Shown here piece by piece: positions 933 to 64,000 of a DNA stretch of 64,000 nucleotides. The notes under the pieces are model-generated. The model searched no databases. It had not been told where the DNA came from and was given only the letters and a program-made list of their open reading frames with translations. How positions within the stretch are numbered: position 1 is the stretch's first letter; every line of letters begins with the position of its first letter. This DNA comes from Mugil cephalus (taxonomy: Eukaryota; Chordata; Actinopteri; Mugiliformes; Mugilidae): assembly GCF_022458985.1 (NCBI RefSeq), contig NC_061771.1, forward strand, positions 22,951,501 through 23,015,500. The letters run 5' to 3'. Made by a program: the position numbers and the translations under genes.

Positions 933-1344
933 TCATGATTCAGAGTTGTGTTGTCGGCTCCGATTGGCCGGAGCCGAGTCCAGACCTCAGACGGCATCGA
1001 CGGGGGAGCAGCGGCATTACTGGGACTCCAGCAGAGAGAAGAACCAGCTGGCCACAATTCATGTTATTTTCATTAGACTTCTCTCATAAACGACTCCTGC
1101 GTTATTTTTTTACTGTTAAATGATGTTTTTTTTTCACTGTGTGACATGTCCCTTCTCTACCATGAGCACATCAGTGTGGATATTGTGGCATGTTTTGGTT
1201 AAATCCCACATACGTGTCCCGCTGCCCTAAATACTCACCAGCCGGAAGAACGTGTTATGTCCCCGACAGATACATTATTCATTCTGGTTTGACTCACTTC
1301 TCATTAAAAACTACAGTGTTGTTCTTACTACTTTACACACACAC

Positions 1345-1800
1345 ACTGATCAGCCACAACATTGTGACCACTAATAGGACATAAATAACACTGACCATCT
1401 TGACAATGCAGCGTTCTGCTGGGGAACAATTGGACCTGGCATTGATGTGGATGTTACTTAGACATGTAGCACCCACCTGGACCAGACCAGACCGGACACC
1501 CCCACCCCATAGCAATGACAGGCAGCAGCCACCCCCAGCAGGATGCAACCCGACACAGGCACACGCACAAAAATGGTTTAGGAACCACCTCAGAAAACAT
1601 GAAATACAGCACAAGGTGTTGACCTGGCCTCCAAATTCATTAGATCCCAAACTGATCAAGTATCTGTGGGATGATCCACAGAGCCCCAAGCCCCAAACAA
1701 CACACTATTGCCTGACACCACAGGCTCATGTCCATTCTCTGATGATTCACAACTGTTTTGGAGGAACAAGGGAGACAATATTAGGAACCATGCTAACGGG
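1345..1800 (+). mobile_element. Tc1/mariner-derived MITE, copy 1
   Basis: It starts with the terminal motif GATCAGCCACAACATTGTGA and continues into sequence resembling the 3' half of a Tc1-type transposase gene (TTCTGCTGGG, GATGTTACTTAGACA, TTGACCTGGCCTCC). The right end (AATATTAGGAACC) is truncated before the terminal repeat. It is an internally deleted, non-coding derivative. The same family recurs near 2991, 5920, 10480, 18940, 45597 and 49466. Confidence 0.75.
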
Positions 1801-2002: not shown

Positions 2003-4896
2003 AATCCAGTAATGGCAACATCAACATCAAGGCGAGTTCTGGATACAAGTTTGGCTGCCTGGCCAAGATAGTCAATTACATGAAGGTAACTTATCAATTT
2101 TTACTTATTTATTTTTAACAAACGCACTCTATCGTAGAGGGAACTCTGCTCTGTTAGGTTTCTGCATCAGCCAATAGGAGGTGCTTCAGACCACGGTGGC
2201 TTTTTCCTCTGCAAGTTCAATGAAGAAGTCAAAACATCTTCCCGCTCCATTGTTAGATTTCAGGGTTGTCGTCATCGCCATCAAAGCTCTGTTGTCTAAA
2301 AACTTGTTGTCGGTTGTATCAGTTGAGCGAGTGAGTCAGGAAGTCGTGTCTGCTGCGTAACATTTGGTGTTCAGTCTTTCTTTTTGTATGTAAACAGCTT
2401 GTTTATGGTGCCGTGGCTCTAAAGAGGCACCCAGTGCCTGACACACTCGCTGTCTGACTCATCCCTTTCTGCAGAGCTCACGCTCTGCTTGACAGATTTT
2501 CCTTGAAAGTGTGTAATTTTTTGTGCCATCTGTTGAATTCAGAGTTTTGAGCTGTGTAAAATAACTTGACAGTTTGCACGTAAGGCACCGAATTGCTGCT
2601 CACGTTTGGCAAAAACACCGTCGGAGTTACAGGACTGAGAACTTCTTATGTTTTAAAATAGGAGCTTTGAATGACTTCACACTGTTGATTTTTTTTTTCT
2701 GTTTGTGTGTGTCCTTGTGTGTTTGTTTAACTCACAGACCAGGCATCAGAACGGCGACACACACTTTCTGACTCTGGAGGAGATTCTGGACGAGACCAAA
2801 CTTCTTGACATCAGCATGAAACAGAAACAGTGGCTCATGACTGAGGTGTGTTTCATTCATTTCCAGCACCACAGTTGTGTCATCTATTGTCAGCAGTGCA
2901 CTTACTTTTGTCTTCCTCTGTCTCACTTGCAATCCAAAAAATACTTCTCACAGTCATCTGTGAGTGGATGCAAGAGTTATCACACATACAACGATCAGCC
3001 ATAACATTAAAACCACTGCCAGGAGAAATAAATGACATTCATCATCTTGTGACAATTCAGTGTTCTGCTGGGAAACTTTTGGACATAACATTTGTTTGAA
3101 AACAGAATTGGTACTTGGGCATGTAGCACCCACCTAGACCAGACCAGGTACCCCCACCCCATAGTTATGACACTCCACCCTGAAACAGACGCACAAAAAC
3201 GGTTTAAGAACAACTAAAAAACAGCACAAGGTGTTGACCTGGCCTCCAGATTCACTAGATCCCAAACTGATCAAGTATCTGTGTGATGATCCACAGAGGC
3301 CCCTCCCCTCAACCCACAGGACCCAAAGGCCCCCACTAACAACATCCTGGTACCAGACGCCTGGTACGAGAAGGCCCATGTCCATTCTCTGAGAGTGGTC
3401 ATAATGTTATGCCTGATCGGTGTGTGTGTACCTTGTATGTTGGAAGAGATAGAAGCCAACGCACTAATAACACGCATAAAGTAAAAAGCTACAATACTTG
3501 GATAAGAACTGCAGCTGGATATTACCGTAGTGTATTTGTTTGTAAAAGTTAAATGTTATTTATTTCTCATAACTTTTAATATAAAATCTTTGTTCATTTA
3601 ATTTAAAGAAATAAATGTGCTACTACTCTTAGGCCTTGGTCAACAACCCAAAAATCGACGTCCGGGACGGTACATACGGCTTCAAGCCCAAGTACAACCT
3701 GAAGGACAAGAAAGCCTTACTGAGACTCCTGGACAAACACGACCAGCTGGGCCTGGGAGGAGTGCTGCTGGACGACGTGGAGGAGGGGCTGCCCAACTCG
3801 GCCAAGGCCATCAAGGTAACCCAGATATCATTCAGCTAAAACAAATGCACGTCAGCAATGTACCGACTAAACACTCAGGACAACAAACAAATGGCTTCTC
3901 TTGTGACGGTTCACAGGCTTTGGGGGATCAGATCATCTTTGTGACAAGACCAGACAAGAAGAAGATCCTTTTCTACAATGACAAGCACTGCCAGTTTGCA
4001 GTAGATGAAGGTGAGCGTCAGTCGGCTTCGTCGGTCACTTGTGATGTTGTGTTGTGTTTTTTTTTCTTCTTCCGTTACCTGCACCGTGCATTTAAAAGAT
4101 TTGTCCGCTGTAGGTTCGTATATCCAATAAATCTTGAAGGTTACCTCTTAAAACTTGATGATTCCAATTTGCTTTTCCATTTTCCTGGAAGAGTTTATTT
4201 TCTTTTGCCAGCTGGCTGTTAGCCTCGCGGTGTGTTCAAGTGCTCAGATAGAGGTAATGTGAGGTGACACTGCAGCCAGGCTTCATCGGCAGTAAATCTT
4301 TTAATTATATTTTGGGAGTCTGTACTTTAATACCTCACAATACTGAAGAGCCAAAACCCTTTACCGTGCATTATGGTGTATTCAAATTAGCTCATTTAGT
4401 TTAAACCTTGATTTAATTTCTTATAGTTAACGGGACATCAGACTAAGATCTATATCCACATTTAGATTTAGTTCCCTACATTATTTGCTGCGTTCGGTGT
4501 CCAGCTCTTTAATCCGTGAACTTATCTCATTTGCAGAATTTCAGAAGCTGTGGAGGAGCGTCCCGGTCGACTCCATCGATGAGGAGAAGATTGAGGAGTA
4601 CCTGAAGAAACAAGGCATCTCCTCCATGCAAGAAACAGGACCAAAGAAAGTGGTCAGTTTCATTTTGTTAACAACGTGTCTCTTAGTTTCACTAAAGCCT
4701 TTAACACTCGGTATTGGAGTTTACACGTAATCGAGCGTCATAATCGGCTCCGGTTGTCCCTCTGTGCCCCGTGCAGTTACCAGTTCAGAAGAGAAAGAAG
4801 CAGAGTGGCCAGAGGAAGAGACAGTTCAAGACCCACAACAACCATTTGGCGGGAGTGCTGGAGGACTATTCAGACGGAGTGCCTGTGAAGAAGTGA
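2003..4896 (+). CDS. gtf2e2: General transcription factor IIE subunit 2 (TFIIE beta), 3' six exons
   Basis: TFIIE beta pairs with TFIIE alpha in the RNA polymerase II pre-initiation complex, helps recruit TFIIH and contacts single-stranded promoter DNA. Exons read as 2003-2085, 2738-2845, 3633-3815, 3917-4010, 4537-4652 and 4777-4896, all with AG/GT borders and continuous phase, giving 233 residues to the stop. The sequence covers the tandem winged-helix core ([56 protein letters not shown]) and the basic C-terminal helix region ending in [14 protein letters not shown]. Human TFIIE beta is about 291 residues, so roughly 55-60 N-terminal residues (the Ser/Lys-rich leader) are missing. No exon encoding them was found at 1-2002, so it probably lies to the left of the window. 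Intron 2 contains a Tc1-type MITE. The 3' UTR runs to an AATAAA near 5448. Identity is very secure; only the 5' end is open. Confidence 0.95.
2991..3425 (+). mobile_element. Tc1/mariner-derived MITE, copy 2 (gtf2e2 intron)
   Basis: Both terminal inverted repeats are present: GATCAGCCATAACATTA on the left and TAATGTTATGCCTGATC on the right. The interior keeps fragments of transposase 3' sequence and no usable frame. It lies in the intron between the second and third gtf2e2 exons of this window. Confidence 0.8.
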
Positions 4897-6413: not shown

Positions 6414-8486
<2,073 letters not shown>

Positions 8487-9142: not shown

Positions 9143-19717
<10,575 letters not shown>

Positions 19718-43600: not shown

Positions 43601-44159
43601 ACCCTAAACAGAACCGGCATGTTCTATCATTTTGAAAGATGTGACTTTTAATTTGCAGCATTAATGAGAACACTGCTGGTTTTATACAGCAAAGTCAAGA
43701 GGTCAAAACTGTGACCCCCCTTTAATTTTCAGGCTTCCAGGTTGGGAAACACTGTGATCATTCAGTTTATTCCATTGTATTTAATTAGACAGTGTCAAAA
43801 CTGTACGTTCAGTTAAGAATCTTTGCTGTACAAGTGCATTTGGTGAAGTTAACTATTCAAAAAATGGTAAGATAAAAACTGGATGTCTTTAAACAGCTTT
43901 TAAATCCTTCATACAATTGGCATCTGATTTCTGCAAATTAGCCCAACATCTCTAAATTCAACATCACCAACATAGACCTTATACAATGTTTGCAAACAAG
44001 CACATTTTTAAATAGAATATGAAGTATATTTTAACCTCGTATATTTTAACTTTCAATGCATTATTGTCACACTTAGGTCACATTGCTCTAACATGTAGTC
44101 ATCAGCTGGTCAGACAGAAACATACTGAAAAGGATTCATTCTTGCCACATTTTAGGTGT

Positions 44160-44415
44160 AGCAGAGGCCCTCATCAGAGTCAGCAGGTCATAACGTACAG
44201 AGAACTCCAGGAGAAAGGATTCGTAATGTTTTCTCTGTTAGTGTCATCCATCAGTTCCTCGTGTGGGCATCGTGTTCGAATAACAAGAGAAGGCTGCTTC
44301 TCATGTATGCTCCAGCTGATGTTTTTCAGCCGCGGTAGAGTCATGTTGTCTCCTCGTCTGGCTTGGCTGTCACCTCCAGGACTGACCCAGATATCTGATC
44401 TTGGCTCCAAGAAAC
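44160..44415 (-). pseudogene. Degenerate V-set exon of the immune receptor family
   Basis: The minus strand keeps the frame and DNA of the V exon found in the intact genes. GTCCTGGAGGTGACAGCC matches their CTGGAGGTGACAGTC, GGAGACAACATGACTCT matches GGAGACAACATCACTCT, and the tail GACCTGCTGA, then TCTGATGAGGGCCTCTGCTAC, matches their DLLI...SDEGLYYC block. The B-strand cysteine, the WF motif and part of the middle are lost, and there is a stop after MTC. No signal-peptide or membrane exon was found near it. It extends the receptor cluster to within about 3 kb of stim2. Confidence 0.7.
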
Positions 44416-45596
44416 AGGTCCCAGAATACAGTGTCATTAAGCTGCAACATGTCCCGTGTTTTAGAAACGCAAGTGCTGCTTTTTAAGATTTAGCAGAAGA
44501 GAGTAATTTGTGTGAAGTCGTGTCTGATGGTTAAAACGATGCTCAGTGTTGTTTGTACGGTGCGACAGCTAATGCACTTAAATCTTGCAGCGTGTAATAT
44601 AAGAATTTTGGTGAAGCAACTTTCCTTTATTTGGAATTTGATTGGAAAAAAAGAATTGCTTTGAATAAAACTTGTCAAAAAAAAAATCTAGAGGACTGTT
44701 TTTCGTGTGCTTTCTACATCAAGACTTACTGTATATGTTATTTAATCCTGACTGATGATGCATTAATGTGACAAAAATCCTTCATTAGCAACTTCAGATG
44801 TAATATTTTTTAAATTTGTAATTGATTGCTTAAATACCTACATATGCATAGATAATTTTTTGTCAACAGCAATTTTCCCATGGTGCATCACAGCTTCATT
44901 CAGAGGGAGATGTTCTCCTCGAGCAAGGCAGGCATTTGGGCCCCAGGCCACTAGAGGGCCCCTGAGGGCTGACAAGGTTTAAAAAAAAAAAAAAAAACTA
45001 CAGGGGTGTCTGTAAATCTTCAGTGACCACAGGAGACCTCACTAAGGTGCCCCTCACATGTCACAACTCTGCACACTATGCCCAATTCAAAGTGAAATGA
45101 AGGTATTTCAATTGAAGCGTGAGAGAAAAGAGAAGAGAAAGCCAGGTCATGCTAAATGAAGCAGATAATGACGGTTAATAATACTACCAGACCGCTAGCT
45201 GAATGCTGCTAGTCGAGGATTAAATATGAGGGGAAGAGCAGCACATCTAAACTCTTCTCAAGTAATTTTTTTTTCAGTTAACATTCATTAACTTAGACAG
45301 CAGAGCAATTTAAATGTACAATTATATATAAACCTATGTGTATACATGTGCACAGCTATTCACAGTATTGCTTGGTATTTATTTATTTATTTATGTTTTT
45401 GGTTTATTACTCATTATAACCACTAGGGGTCAGTAGTGTCTCAAAAGGAGCCTGTGAGGCTTTTGAGTGACGTTGACAGCTGAAAAAACTCTTCCACTAC
45501 TACACAGCCTGGGCAGTCTATGCAGAAAGGAAAAATGTGACCGCTCACAAGTTTTTCACTCATATCTGCTGCATCAATAAAAACAGTTACACACAC

Positions 45597-45990
45597 AAAT
45601 GCAGCCACAACTTTAAAGCCACTGACAGGTGAAGTAAATAACATTGACCATATCTTGTGATAATTCAGTGTTCTGCTGGGGAATTTTTGAACCTGACACT
45701 CGAGTGTTTGTAACTTAGACACGTAACACCCACTTAAACCCCCACCTCATAGCAATGACACTCCTTGTTGGCATCAGTCGTGCCCAGCAGGATGCAGCCT
45801 GACACAGAATGGTTTAGGATCAACTTAAAAGAAAAAATAAATAAACAAATAAAACAGCACAAGGTGTTGACTTGGCCTCCGCACACCACAGGACATCCTC
45901 AGAAGGCCCATGTCCATTCTCTGACGAGTCACCTCAACTGTTCAGGCACAAGTGAGACCTTCACAATATTAGGAAAGTGGTCATGTCTGC
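45597..45990 (+). mobile_element. Tc1/mariner-derived MITE, intergenic copy
   Basis: The left end (GCAGCCACAACTTTAAAGCC), the interior (GTTCTGCTGGGGAA, AAGGTGTTGACTTGGCCTCC) and the right end (CACAATATTAGGAAAGTGGT) match the family. I see no gene in 44440-45596. Confidence 0.75.
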
Positions 45991-48895: not shown

Positions 48896-51104
48896 TTATT
48901 CAATTTGTGTTTCTGTTTGCCTGTACACAACCGCAGAATAGGTGCTGATCTCTTTACTAATCTCTGGATGCTGGGGTTTCATCTTCCTTGGTTTCTGGGA
49001 TGCGGGACTGATTTCCAGCGCAGCATAGCATACATCTTCATCCTAATATGACAAACAACTTCATATGAGTGACGCACTGTTACACACATCATATGATAAG
49101 CTCACTAAAGAATGGCTGTAGTAAGAGACACCAGCAATGGCACTAAGAAAAGTTAACACTGACTGATATCAGGAAAGCATGGGAATTATGCAGAAGTTCA
49201 TGACATGAGAAGATTAATGATTATTCTGTTAGATATCATTACGTAGAATTATTAACATCTCTGTAAAGTAAAACACAGGCAACAGTGACCTGACAGATGT
49301 GTTTACCTCAGACCCTCGTGTTTGGCGTCTGGTGTCAGTTCTTTTCTTTTCGGCCTTGTGTTCCTTGGCTGCAGACATGATCACAGTGTCATTAAACCAA
49401 AAATCCCATAATAATACCTTCAGAGGGCGAATTAAGAGTTTAATGATTTACTAAAAAAGACATATGCGGATCAGGCGTAACATTATGACCACCTTCCCAT
49501 TTTTGCGTAGGTCTCCATTGTGCCTCCAGAACAGTTGGACATAGGCTTTCTGAGGGTGTCCTGTGGTGTCTGGCAAGAGAATGTTGTTACTGGGGGCCTT
49601 TGGGTGCTATGGGTTGAGGGGATCTTCCAACAGATCCTTGATCGGTTTTGGATCTAGGTACATGTCATCCACATGAATGCCAGCAGAACATCGCATTGTC
49701 ACAAGACGGTCATTGTTATTTACTTCCCCTGTAAGTGGTCATAATGTTGCGGCTGATCGGTGTATACAGTACAGCATGTACCTGTTTTTTGACAGGAGCA
49801 ATAAACCACAATAGAGGAGAGAAAACAAGAGAGAGCAGCACAGGCCGGACAGAGAGAGTACAGCAGCATCCAGCACGGAGCACAGTCTGGAGGCGTCTCA
49901 GTCTGTTGAGGTTCGCTGGAGTCTGTATCAAACACGACATTAAGATCTTTAGAATTCATTATGTTATATTTTTATTTATATTGATATTATTTTGCCCTTC
50001 AACTTTAAATTAGGTAGCCTATATAATGTCATCTCATCTTCATCTCTCACTCGGATCACTAGGCTATTGCAGGGGTTGTGGGCTTTTATTTTGCTCTTAT
50101 TTTGCACTTTTTAAAGGGATATTTCATTAAATATGTTCATACTCGTTTTTTGCACTGAAACCAGAAGAAAATCTGGAGTTGTCGTTATTTATACATTATT
50201 ACTTTAAATTATGTTTCTACTTTGGTGAGGTGTCAATGAAGAAAAGTTTTTCAGAACAATAATTGTTAAGCAGTCATATATTATTTTCATGTGCTCACAA
50301 TCATAGTACATTAGTGTTTTAAGATGCTACTATACCATACCAGTTTACTGTTATATATTAATGTCACTTTCATTCACCTCTGCACTAATTGCATTCATTT
50401 GCGCATCCCTTTAATTGCATACAGTGTAGATTTTATTGTGTATTGCTGCCGTAGTTTTTATCTTTGTGCTGCTACAGCTTTTATTTTTACTGCTTCCGAA
50501 CCGGAGCACTGATAAACTGTATTTTCATGTGTAGCCTTATGTAAATTGAGCAGAATACTTACCGACTATGATCCTTGTTGTTCTGTTGCCATAAACAAGT
50601 GCCTTGGTTGTGGTTTTTTCACTTCCACAGTAGTACAGACCTTCATCTGAATCCATAATATTTGTGATCAGCAGGTCAGTGGATTCAGAGGACTGGTTGC
50701 TCACCAACTGGAAACGAGGAAGAGGACTCAAAAAGCCAATGGTATCAACCTCTATTTTCCATGCCTCAAGGTTTAGTTTTAGAACAAGAGGAGGCTGGTT
50801 CAGATGGGAGCAGTTTCTGAACCACACTATTAATCTTCCAGATTTTTTACAGTCACAGTAGAGAGTGATGTTGTCTCCTGCTCTGACTGTCTCCTCCAGC
50901 ACCGATCCAGAAACAGTCCCTAGAATACAAACAGAACCACGAAACAGGTGAAAACGTAGAAATGACTTCTCGATACAGCAACACAACACTGATAACACAA
51001 GGTCATATTCAGCTAAATAGAATCAATAAAATAATGTTGATGCCTCATTGATGTTACTAAAACTTACCCAAGAGAACGAACAGAAAAATCTGCAGCCCAT
51101 CCAT
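48896..51104 (-). CDS. V-set immunoglobulin receptor 1, two ITIM-like motifs, complete, 5 exons
   Basis: This is a single-pass leukocyte-type receptor, probably inhibitory. Minus-strand exons: 51104-51068 (signal peptide, MDGLQIFLFVLL), 50919-50563 (V domain), 49922-49782 (stalk and membrane), 49368-49307 and 49042-48896 (cytoplasmic). They total 744 nt, or 247 residues. The V domain has the B-strand Cys (NITLYC), VWF in strand C and the DSDEGLYYC F-strand block. It also has an extra cysteine pair (CDC and RNCSH) that could form a second disulfide, several N-glycosylation sites and a YGNRTTRIIV end resembling a J-type strand. The membrane segment (WMLLYSLCPACAALSCFLSSIVVY) has no charged residue. 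The tail carries VCYAAL and STYSAV, both fitting (I/V/L/S)xYxx(L/V/I). The family looks like a teleost-specific immune receptor of NITR-like architecture, but I cannot assign a name. Splice phases 1-1-1-0 match receptor 2. A reversed Tc1-type MITE is in intron 3. Confidence 0.85.
49466..49765 (-). mobile_element. Tc1/mariner-derived MITE, reversed copy in receptor 1 intron 3
   Basis: Both terminal repeats are present (GGATCAGGCGTAACATTATG at the left, TGTTGCGGCTGATCGGTG at the right). The interior reads as the reverse complement of the other copies. Confidence 0.8.
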
Positions 51105-51436
51105 GACTGATGATGTGTAAAGATGTCTTAACAGATCTTGCTTACTGTATGTCATGACCTGCGCAGATCTCTCCGTTCACGGAAATGTGCGCTGACTGGC
51201 TAGAAAAATGGAACACTGGTTTTGTTGAGATGGAAATTTATGGTCTGGAAAGATCACACAGAAACCACTTCTAAATGGGGACTGAATTCTTGTGTCTGTA
51301 TTCATGCTTTTGTATGCAGTATTTTACTGTGCTTTATATTTTTTACTGAGGGCATAGTCGAAAAGAAACGTGGCCCATCACTGACTGATGATGAAAACAT
51401 TTGTATTGATTTGGAGGTTGGTCACGTACAGTTAGG

Positions 51437-52137
51437 TCCGTATATAACTGGACAATGACACAAGTTTTGTTATTTTACAGTAGCTGTTCATCAAAACATG
51501 CTCAAGATACAGTTATATAATCAATAAGTGTAGACTCCCAGCTGTAATTTAGCTGTCTCCTTTTCAAAGGACCAAAAGTGATTGGACAGTTGACTCAAAA
51601 GCGATTTAAAGGGCCTCATTGTCTATTCCCTCATTAATCCTTTATCATTTAAGCAGGTAAAAGGTCTGGAGTTGATTCTAGGTGTGTCATTTGCATTCAG
51701 ACGCTGTTGCTATGAGCCCACAACATGTGGTTGAAGGAGATCTCAGTGGAAGTGAAACAGACCATCCTTCGACTGGAAAAAAAACAACGAAATCCGTAGG
51801 AAATGTTGACCAAATCATCAGATTTGATACAGATACATTCTGAGAAAAAAACAAAGAAACAAACAAAAAAAACACTGGTGTGCTCGGAAACTCTAAAAGG
51901 CCTGGACGTTCACGAAAGACAAAAGCGTTGGATGATGACAGGATCTTTTCATGGTGAAGAAAAACCCCCTCACAACATCAACCCAAGTGAGAACACTCTC
52001 CAGGAAGTAGGTCTATCAGTATCTAAGTCTACAATAAACAGAAGACTTTGTGACAGTAAACACAGAGGGTTCACCACAAGGTGCAAGCCATTCATCAGCC
52101 TCAAAAATAGAAAGCTAAACCAGATTAGACTCTGCCA

Positions 52138-52188
<51 letters not shown>

Positions 52189-52390
52189 AACAAACAAATA
52201 AAACAAAACAAACAAACATAAGAAACCAGTCAAATTCTGGAACAGTAGGCCTATTCTTTGGACATAAGAAACTAAGTTGAACCTGTACAAGAATAATGGG
52301 AAGAAAAACGTATGCAGAAGGCTTAAAACTGCTCATGATCCGAATCATGCCACATATTGCTACGTAAAACACGGTGGACGCAATATTTGC
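51437..52390 (+). mobile_element. Tc1-type transposon, second family, decayed
   Basis: It starts TTAGGTCCGTATATAACTGG and retains AAGGTCTGGAGTTGATTCTA, AAGTGAAACAGACCATCCTT, AGGCCTGGACGTTCACGAAA and AAAACACGGTGG in the order of a Tc1-like element. The transposase frame is broken many times and the 3' third is missing. It lies just upstream of receptor 1. Confidence 0.75.
52139..52190. repeat. (CAA)n microsatellite inside the decayed Tc1 element
   Basis: About 16 CAA/ACA units occupy the point where the transposase frame reads GCCAAAACA, so the expansion happened after insertion. Confidence 0.9.
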
Positions 52391-52544
52391 AGATGCACTG
52401 TTAGCGTCTCTTCAGCTAATATTACAGTGTGAGGAGCCTGTAATTTGCGGCCTTGTGATTGACTGAGCAGCGATAGGGGCGGGGCCTTCTGTGTACAGGA
52501 GGCTTAGACTGACAGGTCTAGTGTGGCGCTCAGTGTGAAATGCA

Positions 52545-52790
52545 TTGACTGTATATACTATGGACAAATACATCGTGACATCACCCACTAGATTGTGAAC
52601 CTGTGAAGTGGGCAGAGCCCGCAGTCGCCATGTTGGATGAGCTTTACTCTACCTACACGTGGATATTCCAAATATGGACATGGGGTGGTCATGTCGGATT
52701 TTTAGACTCACCCCTATAACTCTGCTACCTGCCAGCTAAGGCTACTGCCTGTCATTCAAAGGGGAAAGCCCTGTATCACTGAAGGAGTGC
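52545..52790. repeat. Interspersed repeat, SINE/MITE-like
   Basis: It contains TTGACTGTATATACTATGGA, CGTGACATCACCCACTAG and GTCGCCATGTTGG, the pattern of a widespread fish short interspersed element. No gene is seen in 52800-53760, apart from a short repeat scar with TTTATTGATCCTTCATGTGG near 53160. Confidence 0.5.
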
Positions 52791-53769
52791 TGACTTAAAG
52801 ATAATGTCTTCTGCCTCTATTTATCCCTTCACTAAAGGATTGGATTCATGTTAATGTATATTCAAAGAAATTAAAATTTGCGAGGGCAAAATTTTAAAAG
52901 TATATATATGTATATAAAAAAGTCTAGTCAAGCGAACTGACTGTTCAAATGAAAATATGAAATGTGAAAATAGTGAGCAGGGTATGGAAAGTGTAATGTC
53001 AATCAAGGTGTCCATAGTCAGGAATTAATGACAACCGTTTTTATTATATTATTATTTAGCTTTCAAACAATTCAGGTAAAAACATTTGGCCACAGTTCTC
53101 AGGTTAGTGTGCTGATAATTTAAGTCTCAGTGACATAATAATAATAACAATTATTGTTCCTTTATTGATCCTTCATGTGGAAATTCCCACATTACAGAGT
53201 TTTGTGTCGACCCCTTCGGGACTCTTTCTTGAGCACAGTGATTTAAATTATATAAGCAGTATGTATACATTTTTAGCTGCTCTACAAATGTTTCTCCTAC
53301 TAACAAATCGCACAGCACACAAAGTCGGTGGGTGTCCTCTGGTGAATGCAGCGAAATGGTGTGCCAACACCTTTATCAGGCCATCAATCTGCAGCTCCTT
53401 CTGCCTGCTGCGTTAGTTTCACTTGTGCGAGGGGCTTTTTCATCTCTCTGGGTTTCCTCTGAGCTCGCCACGCGCTACAAGGACAGCGTTGCGGTTTAGG
53501 TTTAGCTTTATTGTCACCTCCGTCTCATCGTGACATCTTTGAAACTGGAATCAGGACACGTTGAACCCGAAGAAGAAGTTGTTTTGTGGTGTGAACACGA
53601 ACACAGAGGCATTCACGTACTGAAACTTGTTGACCTCTCATAAGATTACTGGTCAACTGATGCAATGAGTAACTTCTCATTTCTTAAACAACCAACGCAG
53701 AAATACACTAATTCTGTGGAAACGATGTCTGTTTGAGAAGGGCCAAATCATTGGCTGCATGAAGCAAAG

Positions 53770-54460
53770 AAAACATCTAGAGAGCAGAAACTACTAAAAA
53801 TGGGTTAAGTATTGTATAATGCATCATTAAAAAAGGATAGTGGGGAACCATCATGTTTGAGGAAGAAATGTCCTGATCATGACGGGCGATCATTTAAACG
53901 TTCGGTGAAATCATATTGAAGAAAAACAACAGTGGAACTCAGGGCTACGTTTAAGAGTAAAAGTAAGAACATTTCCACACAAACAATGTGAAAGAAACTC
54001 AAGGGACTGGGACTGAACAGCTGTGTAGCCTTAAGAAAACCACTAATCAGTCTAACCGCTGAATGGCTAACCGGGAAATAAGGCTTCAATTTTGCTATGG
54101 AGCATGAAGATTGTACTCTGGATCAATGGAAGACGGTCATGTGATCTGAGTCCAGATTTACTCTGTTCCAGAGTGATGGGGCATCAGGGTGAGAAGAGAG
54201 GCAGATGAAGTGACGCCCCCATCATGCCTAGTGTCTGCTGTACCAGGCTGTGGGCTCTCAAACCACATTGAGAATGTTTTTCTGTTTTTTTTTTCATCAA
54301 CACAAGATCTTGGTGTAAAATGAATGCAACACTGCATGGTAATAAATCTTGTGACATTGCAGAAGCTTCTTATCAAAACAATGCATGCTGCAAACAAAGC
54401 TAAAGGTCCAAGGAGATATTAGAGTATGTCACCTTTTTTTTGGCCAGGCATTGTAGAACT
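53770..54460 (+). mobile_element. Tc1-type transposon, third family, decayed
   Basis: It retains AAACTCAAGGGACTGGGACT, GGAAATAAGGCTTCAATTTT, ACTCTGGATCAATGGAAGAC, GTCCAGATTTACTCTGTTCC and GTAAGAAGAGAGGCAGATGA-like sequence. It ends in AGGAGATATTAGAGTATGTC and CACCTTTTTTTTGGCCAGGC, the usual right end. It is internally deleted with a broken frame. Confidence 0.7.
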
Positions 54461-56910
54461 GTATGTATCCTGCATATAGTTTCAACAGCATGATGAACTT
54501 ACTCTTCTTTTCAGGTCGCTAGTCCGGAAGGACGCGGGGGAGTTTCACCTTGAGTAAGTGTGAAGAAAACAGAACAGTGTGTGTTCTATAGTCCCTGTAT
54601 CTCTTCTAGCTACATGTTATTATTTATATAGGGCTCCATGTAAGTAGAATCAAATATATGAATCAAAACACTGCGTGCATGTGCATTTTAATGGCTTTTT
54701 TTCCCCCCAACTCTACAGCCTCCTTGTTGAGAACACAGAAGTATTTTTTTCTTTTCCGGTTTTCCGACATGCAACTTAACCATTTTGGTTCACTCTCACA
54801 TCTGTGGTCTGTGTCTTTTGTAAAGGGGGGCAGCATACTGTTAACAACCAGGCCCACCTGCTCACTACAATGGCATATAAAGCTATCAGCAGCTGAAACA
54901 TCAGTGCTGTCTCAGAAGTCGACTGATCTCGATAATCAGGCTGGCAGAAATTACTTCCAGTTTGTATTAATGCTATTCTGTCTATGCTACAATAGTTTGC
55001 TGATAATTCACCAGGTGTTGATATGTTTTGATGTGAGTAGTGTCTGTGTAAGCTTTTAAAGTTGGCACTTGGAACAAAAGACTCTGCTACCTTTCTGCTA
55101 AGTGATCATCCTCTGTGCATGTGGGTGTCATCTGTGGGTAGGCATGGCCTCTATGTGTGTCTTTACAATTTCCACTGGTACACAGCGAACATAGTGAAAT
55201 GGTGCGTACACCTTTATCAGTCCATCAAACTGCAGCTTCGGTCTGTGCACAGGTTGAGTCCCGTTGCAGGTGGGGCTGTTTGTCACTGCGGGTTTCCTGT
55301 CAACTGGCTTCTCAGTAAACGGACAGCAAAGTGGTTGAGGTTATTGTCAGATTGGTATTAACCTGCAGAATGTGTGAAGGTGCATTGAGGGCAGTGCAAC
55401 AACAAGGAAGGTGAAGTGTAGTTGTTGGTGACACGTACAGGAAGTGAATGAAAGGGAGCACAGAATGTGTGCGCGTGGTTCATCAAACCAACTGTGTTAC
55501 ACACCATTTGATTAAATGTGCATTTCAAACTTCAAACTGTATTTCTTTAAATAGCACTTCTCATACCAAAAAGCAGCACAAATGAAAAGATAAAACGTTA
55601 CGAGAAACGAAGTCAAGAAACCGCTACCACATATGCTGCTGCAGGGATCACTCTCACCCAGGCAGAGAGGCAGGGTCCTAACCACCCAGGCCGTAGGGAC
55701 CCAAGAGACACCCCCATGGGCAGACAGGCACAACCCCGTGGCCCCCAAGAGGAAACACTGGATAAAACATCTTATAAAAAACATCAAATCTTTTATCTAT
55801 TTATCAATGAATCCAACCTTGAAGTCAGACAAAAAAAAAAAATCCTAGTTCATTGTCTAATCAATCAGTTCATGGTTCCACAGCTTTATTTGTCAGAATT
55901 TCTTTAAGAATCAGTCAGAATCAGAATCAGTCAACCTTTATTTGGCCCACAAATTTGGGACATTACAGGAAACTCTGATCTGACTTAAAGGTTAAAGGCC
56001 AAGCTGATGGCAGAATCTCTCTCTCTCTGTAGTTCTTTTTACTTCCTGAAACCTGAGCTTTATGTTAATTCCTTCAAGGAGCAAAGAAGTATAAAAATTA
56101 AGCACCAACTTTGAGCATGACTTGTAATCCCAACGTCCTCAAACGAGTACTCACTTACTAGCGACACTGTAGCTTTTTACAACTGATAGAATTTGTTAAA
56201 TTAGCATGTCATATAGTTTCAACTATAAAAATAAAAATAAAATAAAGATTTCGCTTTACATGCTGTCATGTTTTTACACTGACTAGTGTATTGACCCTTT
56301 TCAACCACTAGATGGCAGATAAAGGCATCCACTCATGAGGACAACAGGTCTAAATAAAGCAGAATAAGGAGGTACCACAAACCCAAAACCTGTCCCATAT
56401 GAGGATACAGGGACTCAGGAGGTTAAACACAGGATTTTAGATTACTGGCCTTCAGTGTTTGTAATTCTAGGATTAAGTTTAAGCACGGTTTATACTTCTG
56501 TGGGACAAGGATGAAATGATATGCTTGTATATACTTATGCACTCGTCAGTCCGCACAAAAACATAAAAACGTCAGCACTGACTTGTTTTACCAGTTGGAT
56601 TCATTTTTGTTTCTGCTTCCATTTCAACAATGGCAACTGAAACTTTTGCTGAAATTTTGCCGAAAATGAGTCATAAAAATTTGTGTCTCCGAAACTCCTA
56701 AGTTAATCTTTCCTTGATGTGTTCCATCTTTCTACTACCGCTTATTATCAATTCTAATATTTAGGGTTACTTAGGGAGATTCAAGAGATTCAAAGTAAAG
56801 GAGAAGAACTGAAATGAAATGAGGATTTTGTGTATTTATACTGTATTTATTTTACATACTGAATTAAAAAAAAAAGTTATTTTCTCATCATCACAGGGTA
56901 TTCACACATG
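54461..56910. other. Intergenic, no supported gene
   Basis: This stretch holds scattered repeat scars and one short exon-like block at 54514-54552 (see findings). The minus-strand frame at 55512-55787 is hydrophobic in parts but matches nothing I recognise and has no exon neighbours. Confidence 0.4.
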
Positions 56911-59530
56911 CATTCAATTATGACAGGATGATAACACAGTGAAGCACATGAAGCACAAAACAATAAAGAGTATTAAAATATTGGATAATATGATGATAAT
57001 AATAATAATATCAACATTACGAATGGCTTCACAGCAACATAAAATTCTGCAATTTTAAAAACAGGCATAAAGAACAAAATATATATATAAAACTAAAACT
57101 CACTTCGCACACAACTAAAAAACATGAAACGCTCTCTGCTAACAGTATGTCTTACGTAGCAGATTAAAGGAGATCACTGACCTAATTTCCTCAGGCTGAT
57201 TCTTCCACAGACGAGGGGCCCTAACCAAGAACAACCTTCAGTTTTCAGCCAGGCCCCTGGAACAGACAGCAGACCTCAGCCTGAGGATCTTAAGGTACAT
57301 ATCAACCTGTGTGGTGCTAAAAGGTCAGTAACATGTAGTAAGTGATCAATAAGAGCTTAAAATCAATTCTAAAACACAGTGGGAGTCAGAAGTGATCTGC
57401 TGAAACCAGAGTGATGTGATCTCTTTTGTTCTGATTCTGTGTCTTTAAAAGATGTCAGGAATCCAAACTGATAAGCAATCAAGGAAAGAGAACACAGGCA
57501 ACAACACAAAACAGGAAACCAAGGAACTTAACAAAATAAAACAGGAAACTCAAAACATGATTATGAAAAAACAATTCTAATATTACATCATTAGGTCAGA
57601 GGTTCTGACGACAGAGTAGGTGCAGGCTGTTATGTCAGAGCTCCAGATCTTCATCCTCTTTGGTCTCTGTGTTGCCTGATGGAGTTCCAGCGCAGCATGA
57701 AACACATCTTCATCCTACAGTGTCGTCATCAGTGTAATTATTTAGTGTCATAATCACACATGCTTTACCAGCAATCACCTGATTTAATGAGTTTAATAGC
57801 ACACTATTCATCTACTGGTTCTCCTCCACCATTAAGGAAGTTATTGGTTATAATCACTATTGACACTTAGTGGTTGATACTAGTCAGAGTGTTCAACATG
57901 TTTGCCGTTATAAAGTCAGGACTAATAAACTGTCTCTCTATAAGTTACCTGAATGGGTGGTATCTGGACTCTGGTGTCAGTTCTTTTCTCATCAACTTGA
58001 AGACGTTTGGCTGCAGAGATAATAACAGAGGAGAACTTTATCTTAAGCCAGATTAATTTTTATGAGTCTGACAAGAAGGAATTCAACTTTGGGGATTCAG
58101 AGTCATGGCAATACAAAAAAAAGAAAAGAAAAAAGTTTCTCAAGAAAAATGGGAAAATACGATGGTATTATGTTATTATAAAGACAATAAACTGAAGTTA
58201 GAATAAGTGAGTAAATATAGAACTTGTACCTGTTTCCCGACAGAGCTGTAAAATGAACATGGAGGAGAGAATGGCAACAGACGGACACAGAGAGAAGAGC
58301 AGCTTCCAGCACAGACTGCAGTCTTCCAGGGTGTCGTGGACGTCTCCTTGAGGTTCACTGGAGTCTGAGTCAAACACAGAGTTGTGTTATTTAGCTCTGG
58401 GAGAACATGTGTGTGACTTTAGACCTTATTGTCCCCATGGGGAAATTCTTTTTCACAGCACCATCTCCACTCCACAAAGTCGCCCACAGCACAGCACAGG
58501 ACTCAGAAACATTAATGTTGTGCACTTCCTAAATATTTAATTTATAGCACATTGTCATGCATTGTATTTCACTAATCAAAAAATATATGAACCTCTCAAA
58601 GTAGCAGAGTTAAAATTAAAACATAATCATCATTACTCCATCAAGTAGGTGCAGTTTGTGATAACTGGTTATCACAGGTTATATAGATATTTTTTTTTTT
58701 TTCATCATTTACTTTCATCAGCTATTACTAGCTGAAATAAAATGCGGAGACCTGGCTGCATGCGGACTTCCTGGACCACAGTGCGTCTGTGCTCGGCTTC
58801 GGGACTCTACAGGCAACAGTGTGTGACAATATGTTGACCTGAAACTGTCCAATATGGCCTAATATATCAGCAACATAACTGAAAACATAATCACAATACA
58901 ATTTTATGTTCTTTATTAATTATAATTATCAATTAAGCCCCAATAGTCTTCCAGTACCGGTGGTAAAATACCGCTGGCTTGACGTTTTTCTTCAAGTGCA
59001 TGATGAATAATAACAAAAAAAACTTCCTCCTCTTTTTTTTTTCTCATGGATGGCCTTAATACTCTCAGTCCCTCATTTAACAAGTGTCTTTCATAGCTCC
59101 TGATAAACTAGAAGAACTGATCAGACTCATATGATATATGACACGCTGTGAAGACACAACGAGTTTCAAGATGTCTTCTATTTATGTGTCCTAGTTGACA
59201 CTTGGGTTGACTTTATTCATAATTAGAGTTTGGATCCTTGAGTCAAAACATTTGACACAACGTCCTCTGATCAAAATCACTGAATTAGTTTATCTTGGAG
59301 TCAAAGTAGATGTTTGTTCCAAATACAAAAACAAAAAACCTCTCAGGGCTTCGGATCACGGATAAACTCCAGTGCAGCAGTTACCTTGTTAACAACAGAG
59401 GCTACAAAGCAGAAACAAAACAAGAAATGAGAGTAGAAATGACGACAACAGCTGGACACAGAGACAGACCAGCAGCACTGATTATGATTTGAACAGTTGA
59501 TGGATTGAGTTTGTGCAGCTAACACGGAGC
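56911..59530. repeat. Segmental duplication, copy A
   Basis: The sequence from TTCAATTATGACAGGAT through receptor 2 exons 5-3 and the extra membrane exon is near-identical to 61297-64000. Differences are small substitutions and a few indels: copy B has about 100 extra bases near 61950-62100 and about 60 near 63240-63325; copy A has extra sequence near 59140-59225. Confidence 0.9.
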
Positions 59531-60729
59531 TGTTATCAATAGATCTGTGGATTTCATGTTGAAACACAATTTGCATTAATGCTAAATTGCTGATTTTTCA
59601 ATTTGGTATCGAATGACATTATTTAAATGATTTATATATGCGTTTTGGGAGCATTAGTTATTGTTTTTGGTGCAGTATTGGTCTTGTATTGTTGATGGAA
59701 GAATGATGGCCCTATTTCAACGTTGTAACTAATTATGCTGTTATGCGAAATGAAAAAATTACAAAATATATGGAGTACATTTAAAGGTGCGTGAACAGTT
59801 TCAAGCCGTCTCTCATTAAGCAGTAGCAGCATTTTACTGAATTTTCAGCATATAATAATAGTCAAGGAGTTAGGAGCTTGTTCAAAGCACCTCAGCCATG
59901 ACAAGTACAGATCTGTGACCATAAGTTTCCAGTCCCATACTTTACCATTATTTACCATGAAAAGCACGTAAAATAATCTCAAAAACTACAACACATTAAA
60001 ATTGTAGGTATAAAACTTCACATTTCTATCTGGTATAAACTGTAAACAATGTGTTTGCATCGTATAGGCACCATTTACATAAGTGATCACATACCTCAGA
60101 ACTGCTTTCTGACATAAACATGGATATAAATCACTCACCTAATATGAGTTTTGTTGTGATGTTGCCGTATGTGTAAATATGTCTTCTAGTGTTGTATTCT
60201 TTATCCTCCACCTTGGTCTTTTCAGTTGCACAGTAGTAGAGACCTTCATCAGAATCAGTGACGTTGGTGATCAGCAGGCCATAGGAATCAGTGTAATTGT
60301 TCTTCACCAGGTCAAAACGAGGACGTAGTATAAGGCCTGCAGAACTCCACAGTTTCTCACCTTTTGAATCTAGAACAAGAGTAGGCTGGTACTCATGGGA
60401 ACAGTTCCTGAACCACACTATGTATTCTCCACGTGATGGTCTGCAGTCACAGTAGAGAGTGACGTTGTCTCCAGGTCTGACTGTCACCTCCAGTGTTGGT
60501 ACAGAAATCCAACCATGACTGGAGGAAACAACTCCTAGAAGACAATTGTGAGAACATGTGACAAAACATTTAAGCTAAGTAACATTTTATCAGGTTACAA
60601 CTTGGCAGAACAACACTGACACAGTAAGTATGAAATAATTTTCCCAATGTGTGTCGACTATTGCAATTTAAATGTTTAAAATCTAAACTAACCTGAGAGA
60701 GCAATGAGAATAATCCACAGTCCGTCCAT
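57583..60729 (-). CDS. V-set immunoglobulin receptor 2, ITIM lost, complete, 5 exons
   Basis: Minus-strand exons: 60729-60693 (signal peptide, MDGLWIILIALS), 60534-60139 (V domain), 58364-58230 (stalk and membrane), 58010-57949 and 57714-57583 (tail). They total 762 nt, or 253 residues. The V domain has NVTLYC, VWFRNCSH, DSDEGLYYC and the same extra cysteine pair as receptor 1, ending in YTYGNITTKLIL. The membrane exon reads CSLCWKLLFSLCPSVAILSS, with a lysine at its outer border where receptor 1 has methionine. In the tail the ITIM tyrosine is replaced by histidine (VFHAAL in place of VCYAAL). The remaining tyrosine (ACTYSVV) has Cys at -2, so it is not a canonical ITIM or ITSM. This combination suggests an activating or neutral partner of receptor 1. 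All junctions are GT-AG with conserved phases. Confidence 0.85.
59385..59477 (-). other. Extra membrane-segment exon with terminal stop, in receptor 2 intron 2
   Basis: This 93-nt segment has an acceptor (CATAATCAG) and a donor (AAG before GTAACT), with phase 1 at both ends like the used membrane exon. Read in that phase it gives a purely hydrophobic segment (VLLVCLCVQLLSSFLLSFLV and on) ending LCSLCC, then TAA. It would yield a receptor with almost no cytoplasmic tail, or it is a decayed duplicate exon. The frame is conserved in copy B. Confidence 0.45.
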
Positions 60730-61069
60730 GTCTGATGATGACCCGGGGCTGAAAGGCAGCTTCACACGTCCTTCTCACACAAGTTATGACTTACACACTA
60801 TTTTCCATTTAAGGCAATCTAGCTGGTGATTGGCTCGTCGAATGGAACAATTTCTTCTGTGGTGAATTTGCACGCACGTGTTGGTTTTTGCATTGATGTA
60901 TAGATACAACTGTTTTTTGTTGTTTGTTTTTTGATTTTCAGAAAAAACGTCATGATGGACCTCAGATGAAACCAGCTACACTACAAAGGCCTTTCACCAA
61001 CGCTTGGACTGGAGTCAAGAATAGATTGTTTGATGTGAGCCAGACCGCGGTGTTCCAGTTAAGAACGCA

Positions 61070-61235
61070 GGGCTAACACAGAGAGTCAGACAATCATTCA
61101 CACTCACAGCTATTGTCAATTTAGAATCAGCAGTTAACCTAACGAGCATGTCTTTGGAGGCGGGGGGAAACCCACGCAGACACAGGGAAAACATGCAAAC
61201 TCCACATGGAAAGGCCCCAGTCGGACTAACTGCTC
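61070..61235 (+). repeat. LINE-tail-like interspersed repeat fragment
   Basis: It contains GGGCTAACACAGAGAGTCAG, TTTAGAATCAGCAGTTAACC, GAAACCCACGCAGACACAGG and ACATGCAAACTCCACATGG. It lies upstream of the receptor 2 start and before duplication copy B. Confidence 0.65.
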
Positions 61236-62112
61236 TTTAGACGGATGAAATCATTAAATCAACCGTCTGTAAAGGTGGATCTGATTTATTGCCACATGAA
61301 TTCAATTATGACAGGATAATAACACAGTGAAGCACATCAGAAACAATACAGAGTATTAAAATATTGGATAATAAAATGATGATGATAATCAAGTCAACAC
61401 TTTAAACAGCTTCACAGCAACATAAAAATCTGCAATTTTAAAAACAGGCATATATAAAAAATTTAAACTCACTTTATACACAACTAAAAAACAGGAAACA
61501 CTCTCTGCTAACAGTATGTCTTAAGTAGCAGATCAAAGGAGATCACAGACTATAGTGACCTAATTTCCTCAGGCTGATTCTTCCACAGACGAGGGGCCCT
61601 AACCAAGAACAACCTTTTGTTTTCAGCCAGGCCCCTGGAACAGACAGCAGACCTCAGCCTGAGGATCTTAAGGTACGTATCAGCCTGTGTGGTGCTAAAA
61701 GGTCAGTAATGTGTAGTAAGTGATCAATAAGAGCTTAAAATCAATTCTAAAACACACACTGGGAGTCAGAAGTGATCTGCTGAAACCAGAGTGTTGTGAT
61801 CTCTTTTCTTCTGATTCTGTGTCTTTAAAAGATGTCAGGAATCCAAACTAATAAGCAATCAAGGAAAGAGAACACAGGCAACAACACAAAACAGGAAACC
61901 AAGGAACTTAACAAAATAAAACAGGAAACTCAAAACACGATCATGAAACATCAGAGTCATGACGGCAGGAAGTTGGTTGGAAGCTAGGCAGCTAAGTCTG
62001 AGCATCATAAAGAATGGAAAGAGACACCCTGCCTGCTAATTATGTTTCCTCCAAAGAGGATCCATTTACAATATGTGGCCCCTGTTATCGGTTCATTGTG
62101 TTGTTTCTAATA

Positions 62113-62888
62113 TTACATGGTTAGGTCAGAGGTTCTGATGACAGAGTAGGTGCAGACCGTTATGTCAGAGCTCCAGATCTTCATCCTCTTTGGTCTCTGT
62201 GTTGCCTGATGGAGTTCCAGCGCAGCATGAAACTCATCTTCATCCTACAGTGTCGTCATCAGGGTTATTATTTAGAGTCATAATCACACATGCTTTACCA
62301 GCAATCACCTGATTTAATGAGTTTAATAACACACTATTCATCTACTGGTTCTCCTCCACCATTAAGGAAGTTATTGGTTAAAATCACTATTGATACTTAG
62401 TGATTGATACTAGTCAGAGTGTTCACCATGTTTGCTGTTATAAAGAACTAATAAACGGTCTCTCTATAAGTTACCTGAATGGGTGGTATCTGGCCTCCGG
62501 TGTCAATTTTTCTCTCATCAACTTGAAGACGTTTGGCTGCAGAGACAATAACAGAGGAGAACTTTTTCTTAAGCCACATTCATTCTTATGAGTCTGACAA
62601 GAAGGAATTCAACTTTGGGGATTCAGAGTCATGGCAATACAAAAAAGAAAAGAAAAAAGTTTCTCAAGAAAAATGGGAAAATACCATGGTATTATGTTAT
62701 TATAAAGACAATAAACTGAACTTAGAATAAGTGAGTAAATATAGAACTTGTACCTGTTTCCCGACAGAGCTGTAAAATGAACATGGAGGAGAGAATGGCA
62801 ACAGACGGACACAGAGAGAAGAGCAGCTTCCAGCACAGACTGCAGTCTTCCATGGTGTCGTGGACGTCTCCTTGAGGTTCACTGGAGT
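62113..62888 (-). CDS. V-set immunoglobulin receptor 3, 3' part only (exons 3-5)
   Basis: Minus-strand exons: 62888-62754 (stalk and membrane), 62536-62475 and 62244-62113 (tail and stop). They correspond one to one with receptor 2. The membrane exon again has CWKLLFSLCPSVA with the lysine. The tail reads DEDEFHAALE, so the ITIM tyrosine is also histidine here and the -2 position is glutamate; the last tyrosine is in VCTYSVI. The V domain and signal peptide must lie beyond position 64000 if the gene is complete. The frame is open in all three exons, so there is no sign of decay in the part seen. Confidence 0.75.
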
Positions 62889-63886: not shown

Positions 63887-63979
63887 CTTGTTAACGACAG
63901 AGGCTACAAAGCAGAAACAAAGCAAGAAAAGAGAGTAGGACTGACAACAACAGCTGGACACAGAAACAGACCAGCAGCA
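63887..63979 (-). other. Extra membrane-segment exon with terminal stop, receptor 3 copy
   Basis: This is the 93-nt counterpart of 59385-59477, with the same acceptor and donor, the same phase, and a hydrophobic reading that ends LCSLCR, then TAA at the same codon. Confidence 0.45.
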
Positions 63980-64000
63980 CTGATCATGATTTGAACAGTT

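Follow-up and report, generated by a model that had tools for sequence, protein, structure and literature searches.

A tandem array of single-V-domain receptor genes with features of paired receptors in Mugil cephalus

The 64,000-nucleotide stretch of Mugil cephalus DNA analysed here (the window; contig NC_061771.1, C2:22951501-23015500, in a genome of 635 Mb and 24 contigs) contains part of a tandem array of receptor genes, all on the minus strand. The array was built from the window and a 99-kb flank, in which the window numbering is continued past 64000 (adding 22951500 gives the C2 position), and it spans about 73 kb with 12 complete gene models (R1-R7 and R9-R13) and fragments. With somewhat better than even confidence, these genes, which are predicted to encode type I receptors of a teleost, are read as a set of single-V receptors that work as paired receptors, directed at the same ligand family with opposite outputs. 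Members with Met in the transmembrane (TM) segment and immunoreceptor tyrosine-based inhibitory motifs (ITIMs) in the tail would inhibit through SH2 phosphatases; members with Lys would activate via this outer-edge basic residue and a dimer of the FcRgamma/CD3zeta type that carries an immunoreceptor tyrosine-based activation motif (ITAM); R9 would be bifunctional; and V-exon exchange would keep the ectodomains matched.

All 12 models share a five-exon layout with a single V domain, each is one open frame, and 11 of them have GT-AG at every junction. Five (R1 and R10-R13) combine Met with two strict ITIMs, a tail that is above chance in each gene (shuffle fraction 0.0001-0.00075; for R1, 0.00075 of 20,000 shuffles), and from the ITIMs and the lack of a TM charge these 5/12 are the predicted inhibitory members. 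Six (R2-R7) have Lys, His in place of the first ITIM Tyr, and CTYSVV or CTYSVI as the second motif, with no strict ITIM. The remaining model, R9, has Lys and one ITIM (VCYAAV), the second motif being lost; the lone ITIM is not above chance by itself (shuffle fraction 0.088) and occupies the conserved place. The codons concerned are ATG/AAG (Met/Lys), TAT or TAC/CAT (Tyr/His) and AGC/TGC (Ser/Cys at -2). A preliminary description of the window had reported the ITIMs VCYAAL and STYSAV with an uncharged CWMLLYSLCP segment in R1, and FHAAL with a membrane Lys in R2 and R3. These are all present, in an open frame of 247 amino acids in R1, as VFHAAL and CWKLLFSLCP in R2, and as EFHAAL with a Lys-bearing TM segment in R3. 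The exon layout and V domain that it ascribed to all three are indeed shared in the genome, although the V exon of R3 lies beyond the window and was not visible there.

The evidence for pairing comes chiefly from V exons that are alike between genes of different tail class. Between R2 (Lys) and R11 (Met) the V domain is 96% identical (5/132 residues differ), as against 51% for the TM segment and 53% for the tail. The likeness lies in a 1.2-kb block of 92.5% identity, which begins about 340 bp before the start codon and reaches about 250 bp into intron 2; here the V exon differs at 7/396 sites (1.8%), compared with 48/672 (7.1%; p=8e-5) for the noncoding DNA on its flanks. R6 and R9 differ at 14/384 V sites, while their leaders, introns 1 and introns 2 have diverged; high identity starts and stops close to the V exon edges (40-column windows). 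The V tree joins R2 with R11 (100/99) and R6 with R9 (100/98), and R2-R7 form one clade on the TM tree (100/99) and the tail tree (100/100). Approximately unbiased (AU) tests, covering V and tail, reject the R2-R7 clade on V (p 8e-75) and reject R2+R11 (p 4e-5) and R6+R9 (p 3e-6) on the tail. By V similarity, R3, R4, R6 and R7 group with R9, and R2 and R5 with R10-R12; each group therefore holds members with and without ITIMs. Since the V exons of R2/R11 and R6/R9 cross tail classes, paired-receptor behaviour with V-exon exchange is suggested, and the V domains look homogenised by conversion or recombination. The paired-receptor reading thus gains stronger support than the window alone gives; the partner of R2, however, is not R1 but rather R11, because R1 is the most divergent member (V identity 53-58% to the other 11).

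The preliminary description also coupled ITIM loss to the basic TM residue, and named independent variation of the two as the observation that would count against it. The correlation of Met with ITIMs and of Lys with their absence fits 11 of the 12 models, but R9, with Lys and an ITIM, is the very case named, and a strict coupling of Tyr/His with Met/Lys as a law is rejected. R2 and R3, which are 89-94% identical in DNA over aligned blocks outside V, are not two independent cases because they are tandem copies; likewise, since R2-R7 are tandem copies, the six Lys/His cases amount to about one event. Just two independent pairs fall on starred branches of the V tree (median sign-test p 0.5), too few for a statistical test of the correlation.

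Among R2-R7, variable sites number 1/135 in the Lys TM exon and 72/852 in nearby noncoding DNA (p 3e-4). The tail has 13/190, and neither of its exons differs from noncoding DNA (C1, 6/62, p 0.64; C2, 7/128, p 0.30); 11 of its 12 variable codons are nonsynonymous. These figures describe six copies of one assembly, which are not independent, and conversion can level an exon too, though the introns on either side of the Lys TM exon have not been levelled. The pattern appears to fit a receptor whose TM segment matters and whose tail does not, as would be expected if signalling had moved to an adaptor. As to which adaptor, in KIR a Lys at TM position 9 pairs with DAP12 and an Arg at position 4 with FcRgamma (excerpts of PMC8102735), so that an outer-edge Lys is nearer to the FcRgamma pattern; catfish LITR 2.6b, which has a TM Lys, binds FcRgamma-type adaptors and not DAP12 (excerpts of PMC4810170). 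Four TM exons of the FcRgamma/CD3zeta type match PF11628 above the cut-off in this genome, and 0/14 control genomes have any; for the two that were compared, FcRgamma is the best match among solved structures. On these three grounds, an FcRgamma/zeta-type molecule is the likeliest candidate partner of the Lys receptors, ahead of DAP12.

A decayed TM exon lies in intron 2 of R2-R7, 431-660 bp after V, and of R9, 578 bp after V; the V-to-TM distance in the Met-type genes R1 and R10-R13 is 382-641 bp, and the Lys TM exon lies 1.0-1.1 kb beyond the relic. The relics score 36-44 to R13 (Met) and 36-43 to R9 (Lys). On the TM tree R9 joins R2-R7 (78/84, weak); on the tail tree R9 joins R10-R13, and R2-R7 join R1 (81/80, not starred), while a tail grouping of R9 with R2-R7 is not rejected by the AU test (p 0.14). 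It thus seems that in the Lys-type genes the TM exon originally belonging to the V unit has decayed and V is now spliced to a second, basic TM module roughly 1 kb further on; the relics may record the switch. We infer that the basic module probably replaced the first one in a single event, with loss or exchange of tails following later. It is also tempting to speculate, although this scenario is rather doubtful, that the switch came about by a change of TM exon, rather than by point mutation within it, in an ancestral gene whose single V exon was followed first by an uncharged TM module with ITIMs and then, about 1 kb downstream, by a basic one. Such a gene may have produced the two kinds of receptor through alternative splicing; the first TM exon would then have decayed in the Lys-type genes, the first module alone is seen in the Met-type genes, R9 would be an intermediate or a recombinant, and later V-exon conversion would keep both sides matched. 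If true, the array would illustrate the origin of paired receptors in a family other than KIR, CEACAM and NITR. Intron 2 of R9 (extended 92898-91216) also contains a 142-residue open stretch on the strand of the gene.

Several observations weigh against paired function, and the alternatives draw on them. For R2, the best hydrophobic windows of 19 and 21 residues begin after the Lys, while that of 23 residues includes it; the Lys, which the earlier description put near the membrane border, probably lies at or just outside the extracellular edge. A position outside the membrane, named there as an observation against the reading, agrees with two of the three windows and not with the third. The next charged residue follows 22-23 positions past the Lys in the Lys types (26-27 in the Met types), whereas in the two FcRgamma-like exons 16 positions separate the Asp from the first cytosolic Lys/Arg. 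LITR 2.6b still bound adaptors after its Lys had been replaced by Ala (excerpts of PMC4810170), and hence a TM Lys alone does not predict coupling. Moreover, a drifting tail equally fits loss of function. The Lys types could accordingly be non-signalling decoys that kept V, lost the ITIM, anchor the helix at the interface by the Lys and compete for ligand with the inhibitory members, an unlikely explanation to which the edge position of the Lys, a tail evolving like noncoding DNA and the loss of the strict ITIM in 6/6 genes lend some weight. A decoy would not account for a Lys TM exon far more conserved than the introns, for the recurrence of a basic residue in R9 (Lys) and in a broken TM exon at 117717 (Arg), or for adaptor exons with a TM Asp in the genome.

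ITIM loss in the Lys types is also incomplete: the earlier claim of loss holds for the first Tyr, now His, but not for the second, as CTYSVV/CTYSVI fails the strict ITIM at -2 only and keeps its Tyr in 6/6 genes. NITR authors write an ITIM-like motif without the first or last consensus residue as 'itim' (excerpts of PMC2442602), and by that wording the kept Tyr makes CTYSVV/I an 'itim'. That the Lys types are weak inhibitors acting via this Tyr, with an incidental Lys, nevertheless seems quite improbable, given that both motifs are altered in 6/6 genes (Tyr to His; Ser to Cys at -2) and that nonsynonymous changes prevail in the tail. To the points against pairing must be added that R9 breaks the two-class rule; that the V exons of R5 and R12 differ at 35/393 sites with no V-specific excess over the flanks (p 0.35), their likeness reflecting either an older exchange or plain duplication; that TM tests of R2+R11 and R6+R9 had too few distinct rows; that the relic TM exons are weak individually (nhmmer E 5.5e-5 to 6.4e-3); and that the V donor of R6 is CT, not GT, so that this copy may be dead. 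Least probable of all is a decaying, amplified block of Lys-type pseudogenes without function, with which the R6 donor, the broken R8, several relics and the neutral-like tail would agree but six open frames of 249-253 amino acids, GT-AG throughout in 5/6, a constrained TM exon and an R2/R11 V exon more alike than its flanks would not.

A genome search with the R2 V domain (74 matches in total; 150/239 candidates scored) places 13 V exons on contig C2, every one in minus orientation and scoring between 305 and 84 bits; below these, the best match reaches 40.1 bits and belongs to V segments on contig C7, followed by contigs C1 and C17. The genome may contain further family members that lack this V domain. 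R8 is broken, with a stop inside V and a TM exon reduced to a 41-bp relic, and further fragments are V pieces at extended 115855 and 119009 and a 48-bp TM piece at 117999. The broken TM exon near these V fragments is a dead basic-type member. R1 (247 amino acids) and R2 (253) are stop-free five-exon V-set receptors above the Pfam cut-off (26), and GT-AG is present at each junction seen in R1, R2 and the window part of R3, of which only exons 3-5 (62888-62113) lie before position 64000. Just outside the membrane, CxxCW is conserved in all 12 models (CxxCC in R12), possibly with a role in an inter-chain disulfide or palmitoylation. The coordinates are collected in Table 1.

Table 1. Exons, relics and fragments of the receptor array (window numbering unless marked extended)
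Feature	Position	Strand	Evidence
Decayed V exon (gene fragment), left end of array, frame broken	44158..44418	-	nhmmer E 1.7e-23; blastn 73% over 76-79 bp
R1 exon 5, cytoplasmic, ITIMs VCYAAL and STYSAV	48896..49042	-	gene model; shuffle test
R1 exon 4, cytoplasmic	49307..49368	-	gene model
R1 exon 3, stalk and uncharged TM segment CWMLLYSLCP	49782..49922	-	gene model
R1 exon 2, V-set Ig domain	50563..50919	-	Pfam V-set 26.6 bits; gene model
R1 exon 1, signal peptide start (MDGLQIFLFVLL)	51068..51104	-	gene model, donor GT
R2 exon 5, cytoplasmic, VFHAAL (Tyr to His) and CTYSVV	57583..57714	-	gene model; codons
R2 exon 4, cytoplasmic	57949..58010	-	gene model
R2 exon 3, stalk and TM segment with Lys (CWKLLFSLCP)	58230..58364	-	gene model; conserved among R2-R7
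Decayed TM exon in R2 intron 2, 658 bp past V	59393..59481	-	nhmmer E 1.5e-4
R2 exon 2, V-set Ig domain, 96% amino acid identity to R11 (beyond window)	60139..60534	-	Pfam V-set 41 bits
R2 exon 1, signal peptide start	60693..60729	-	gene model
R3 exon 5, cytoplasmic, EFHAAL and CTYSVI	62113..62244	-	gene model
R3 exon 4, cytoplasmic	62475..62536	-	gene model
R3 exon 3, TM with Lys	62754..62888	-	gene model
Decayed TM exon in R3 intron 2	63888..63980	-	nhmmer E 0.0012
R3 exon 2 (V)	extended 64806-64411 = C2:23016306-23015911	-	
R3 exon 1 (signal)	extended 64993-64957 = C2:23016493-23016457	-	
Broken TM exon, Arg at Met/Lys position (CALCWRLLFCLCPAV), near V fragments	extended 117717-117586 (C2:23069217-23069086)		

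To the left of the array, Pfam SOAR (STIM) and TIG_SUH (RBPJ) were found in 2 of the 10 reading frames scanned. An exon at window 7169-7543 (minus strand), with no Pfam match, resembles dynactin 6 (DCTN6). To the right, L038:1324-3704 holds Gypsy-like retroelement reading frames (by eye). An interspersed repeat family of 67-82% identity occurs in both orientations at window 1333-1762, 2981-3361, 10477-10827, 18938-19292, 45587-45971 and 49470-49765, the last copy inside R1 intron 3. A scan of viral contigs with the R2 protein gave five pattern matches and no relative.

By the features tested, the array seems to be neither NILT nor a typical NITR. NITRs are like it in the L-V-TM-C1-C2 exon order of V-only members, in having ITIM and basic-TM members and in forming clusters (excerpts of PMC2442602). 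According to the same excerpts, however, known NITR clusters lie by map4k2/men1/rtn3 or fgfrl1 rather than by STIM/RBPJ, with a third cluster of unexplained origin in medaka, and the NITR charge is described as mid-membrane, in contrast to the membrane-edge Lys here. No second immunoglobulin (Ig) exon, the six-Cys I domain of NITR, is found in the 12 models, an exon that some V-only NITRs also lack; the single DxxxYxC-like match in the 12 second introns (R5, DILFFFC) is not Ig-like by eye. The array V domain ends in a YGNITTKLIL-like sequence, not the exact J motif FGXGTXLXV, and J-like variants are allowed in NITR. A filing under NITR was rejected for want of the second Ig exon and of NITR cluster synteny. 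A NITR-like gene does exist elsewhere, at C1:37319492 (L021), with V and Cys-rich I domains encoded by a single exon, a J-like end and a neighbouring tail with ITIM-like motifs (all by eye); its V is 28-33% identical to that of R2, and three other weak V matches on that contig, up to C1:37752457, reach 31-38%. A PDB sequence search with the R2 V domain returned mostly antibody and other Ig chains, with no NITR name among the best 60 of 247. Searches of the open-licence literature gave no paper that describes this family or reports a NITR-like array at STIM2, which does not show it to be unpublished.

NILTs resemble the array in that most have a single V and in intron phase (ITIM exon phase 0, earlier introns phase 1; excerpts of PMC3022915). 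They differ in their CX3C/CX6C/CX7C cysteines, as against YCDC...WFRNC here (R2 cysteines 41, 43, 57 and 114), and in dividing stalk and TM between two exons, which are one exon in the array; lacking the CX3C/CX6C/CX7C pair, the array was not filed under NILT. T-cell receptor (TCR) V identity was considered because the best V matches outside the array are TCR alpha/delta-like segments on contig C7 (32-40% identity). PDB fold comparison with an AlphaFold model (28 alignment rows, pLDDT 73.5; with 2 rows, 34) likewise found TCR V and PD-1 closest, and also antibody V; NITR was absent among the 50 best rows of each list, which excludes nothing. A recombination signal follows V at 16/16 C7 loci, but at 0/12 array V exons and not at the C1 locus; the array V exons instead have splice donors (CT in R6) and an in-exon J-like end, and a TCR V identity was rejected. 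The C7 segments form a large TCR alpha/delta-like V cluster (C7:38928-1005640, L014-L030 except L021; label by eye), in which the 16 loci looked at all have heptamer, 22-24-base spacer and nonamer after V.

With paired-receptor families the array shares near-identical ectodomains on different signalling ends, homogenisation of the binding exon, and ITIM members without a TM charge. KIR and CHIR comprise inhibitory, basic-TM activating and bifunctional members, the last (KIR2DL4, CHIR-AB) comparable to R9 (excerpts of PMC3601082 and PMC8102735), which likewise has a basic TM residue and an ITIM tail; CHIRs differ in their C2-type domains and in the two ITIMs of CHIR-AB as against one in R9, and evidence of common descent with the array was neither sought nor found. 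Should the paired-receptor reading be right, such a system occupies a locus next to STIM and RBPJ, is distinct from NITR, TCR and NILT, and combines in one array the matched pair R2/R11, the nearly exon-limited exchange R6/R9, the mixed R9 and relic TM exons; the adaptor used by an edge-of-membrane Lys in fish, and whether ligand pressure matches the V exons, would then be open to test. A parallel in exon exchange is offered by the CEACAMs of mammals and Xenopus, whose V exon is homogenised between opposite signalling types, one dog pair having its leader and about 1 kb upstream homogenised as well (excerpts of PMC2832619 and PMC5112662). CEACAM partners, however, have an ITAM or ITAM-like motif of their own, whereas the array has a basic TM residue and no ITAM.

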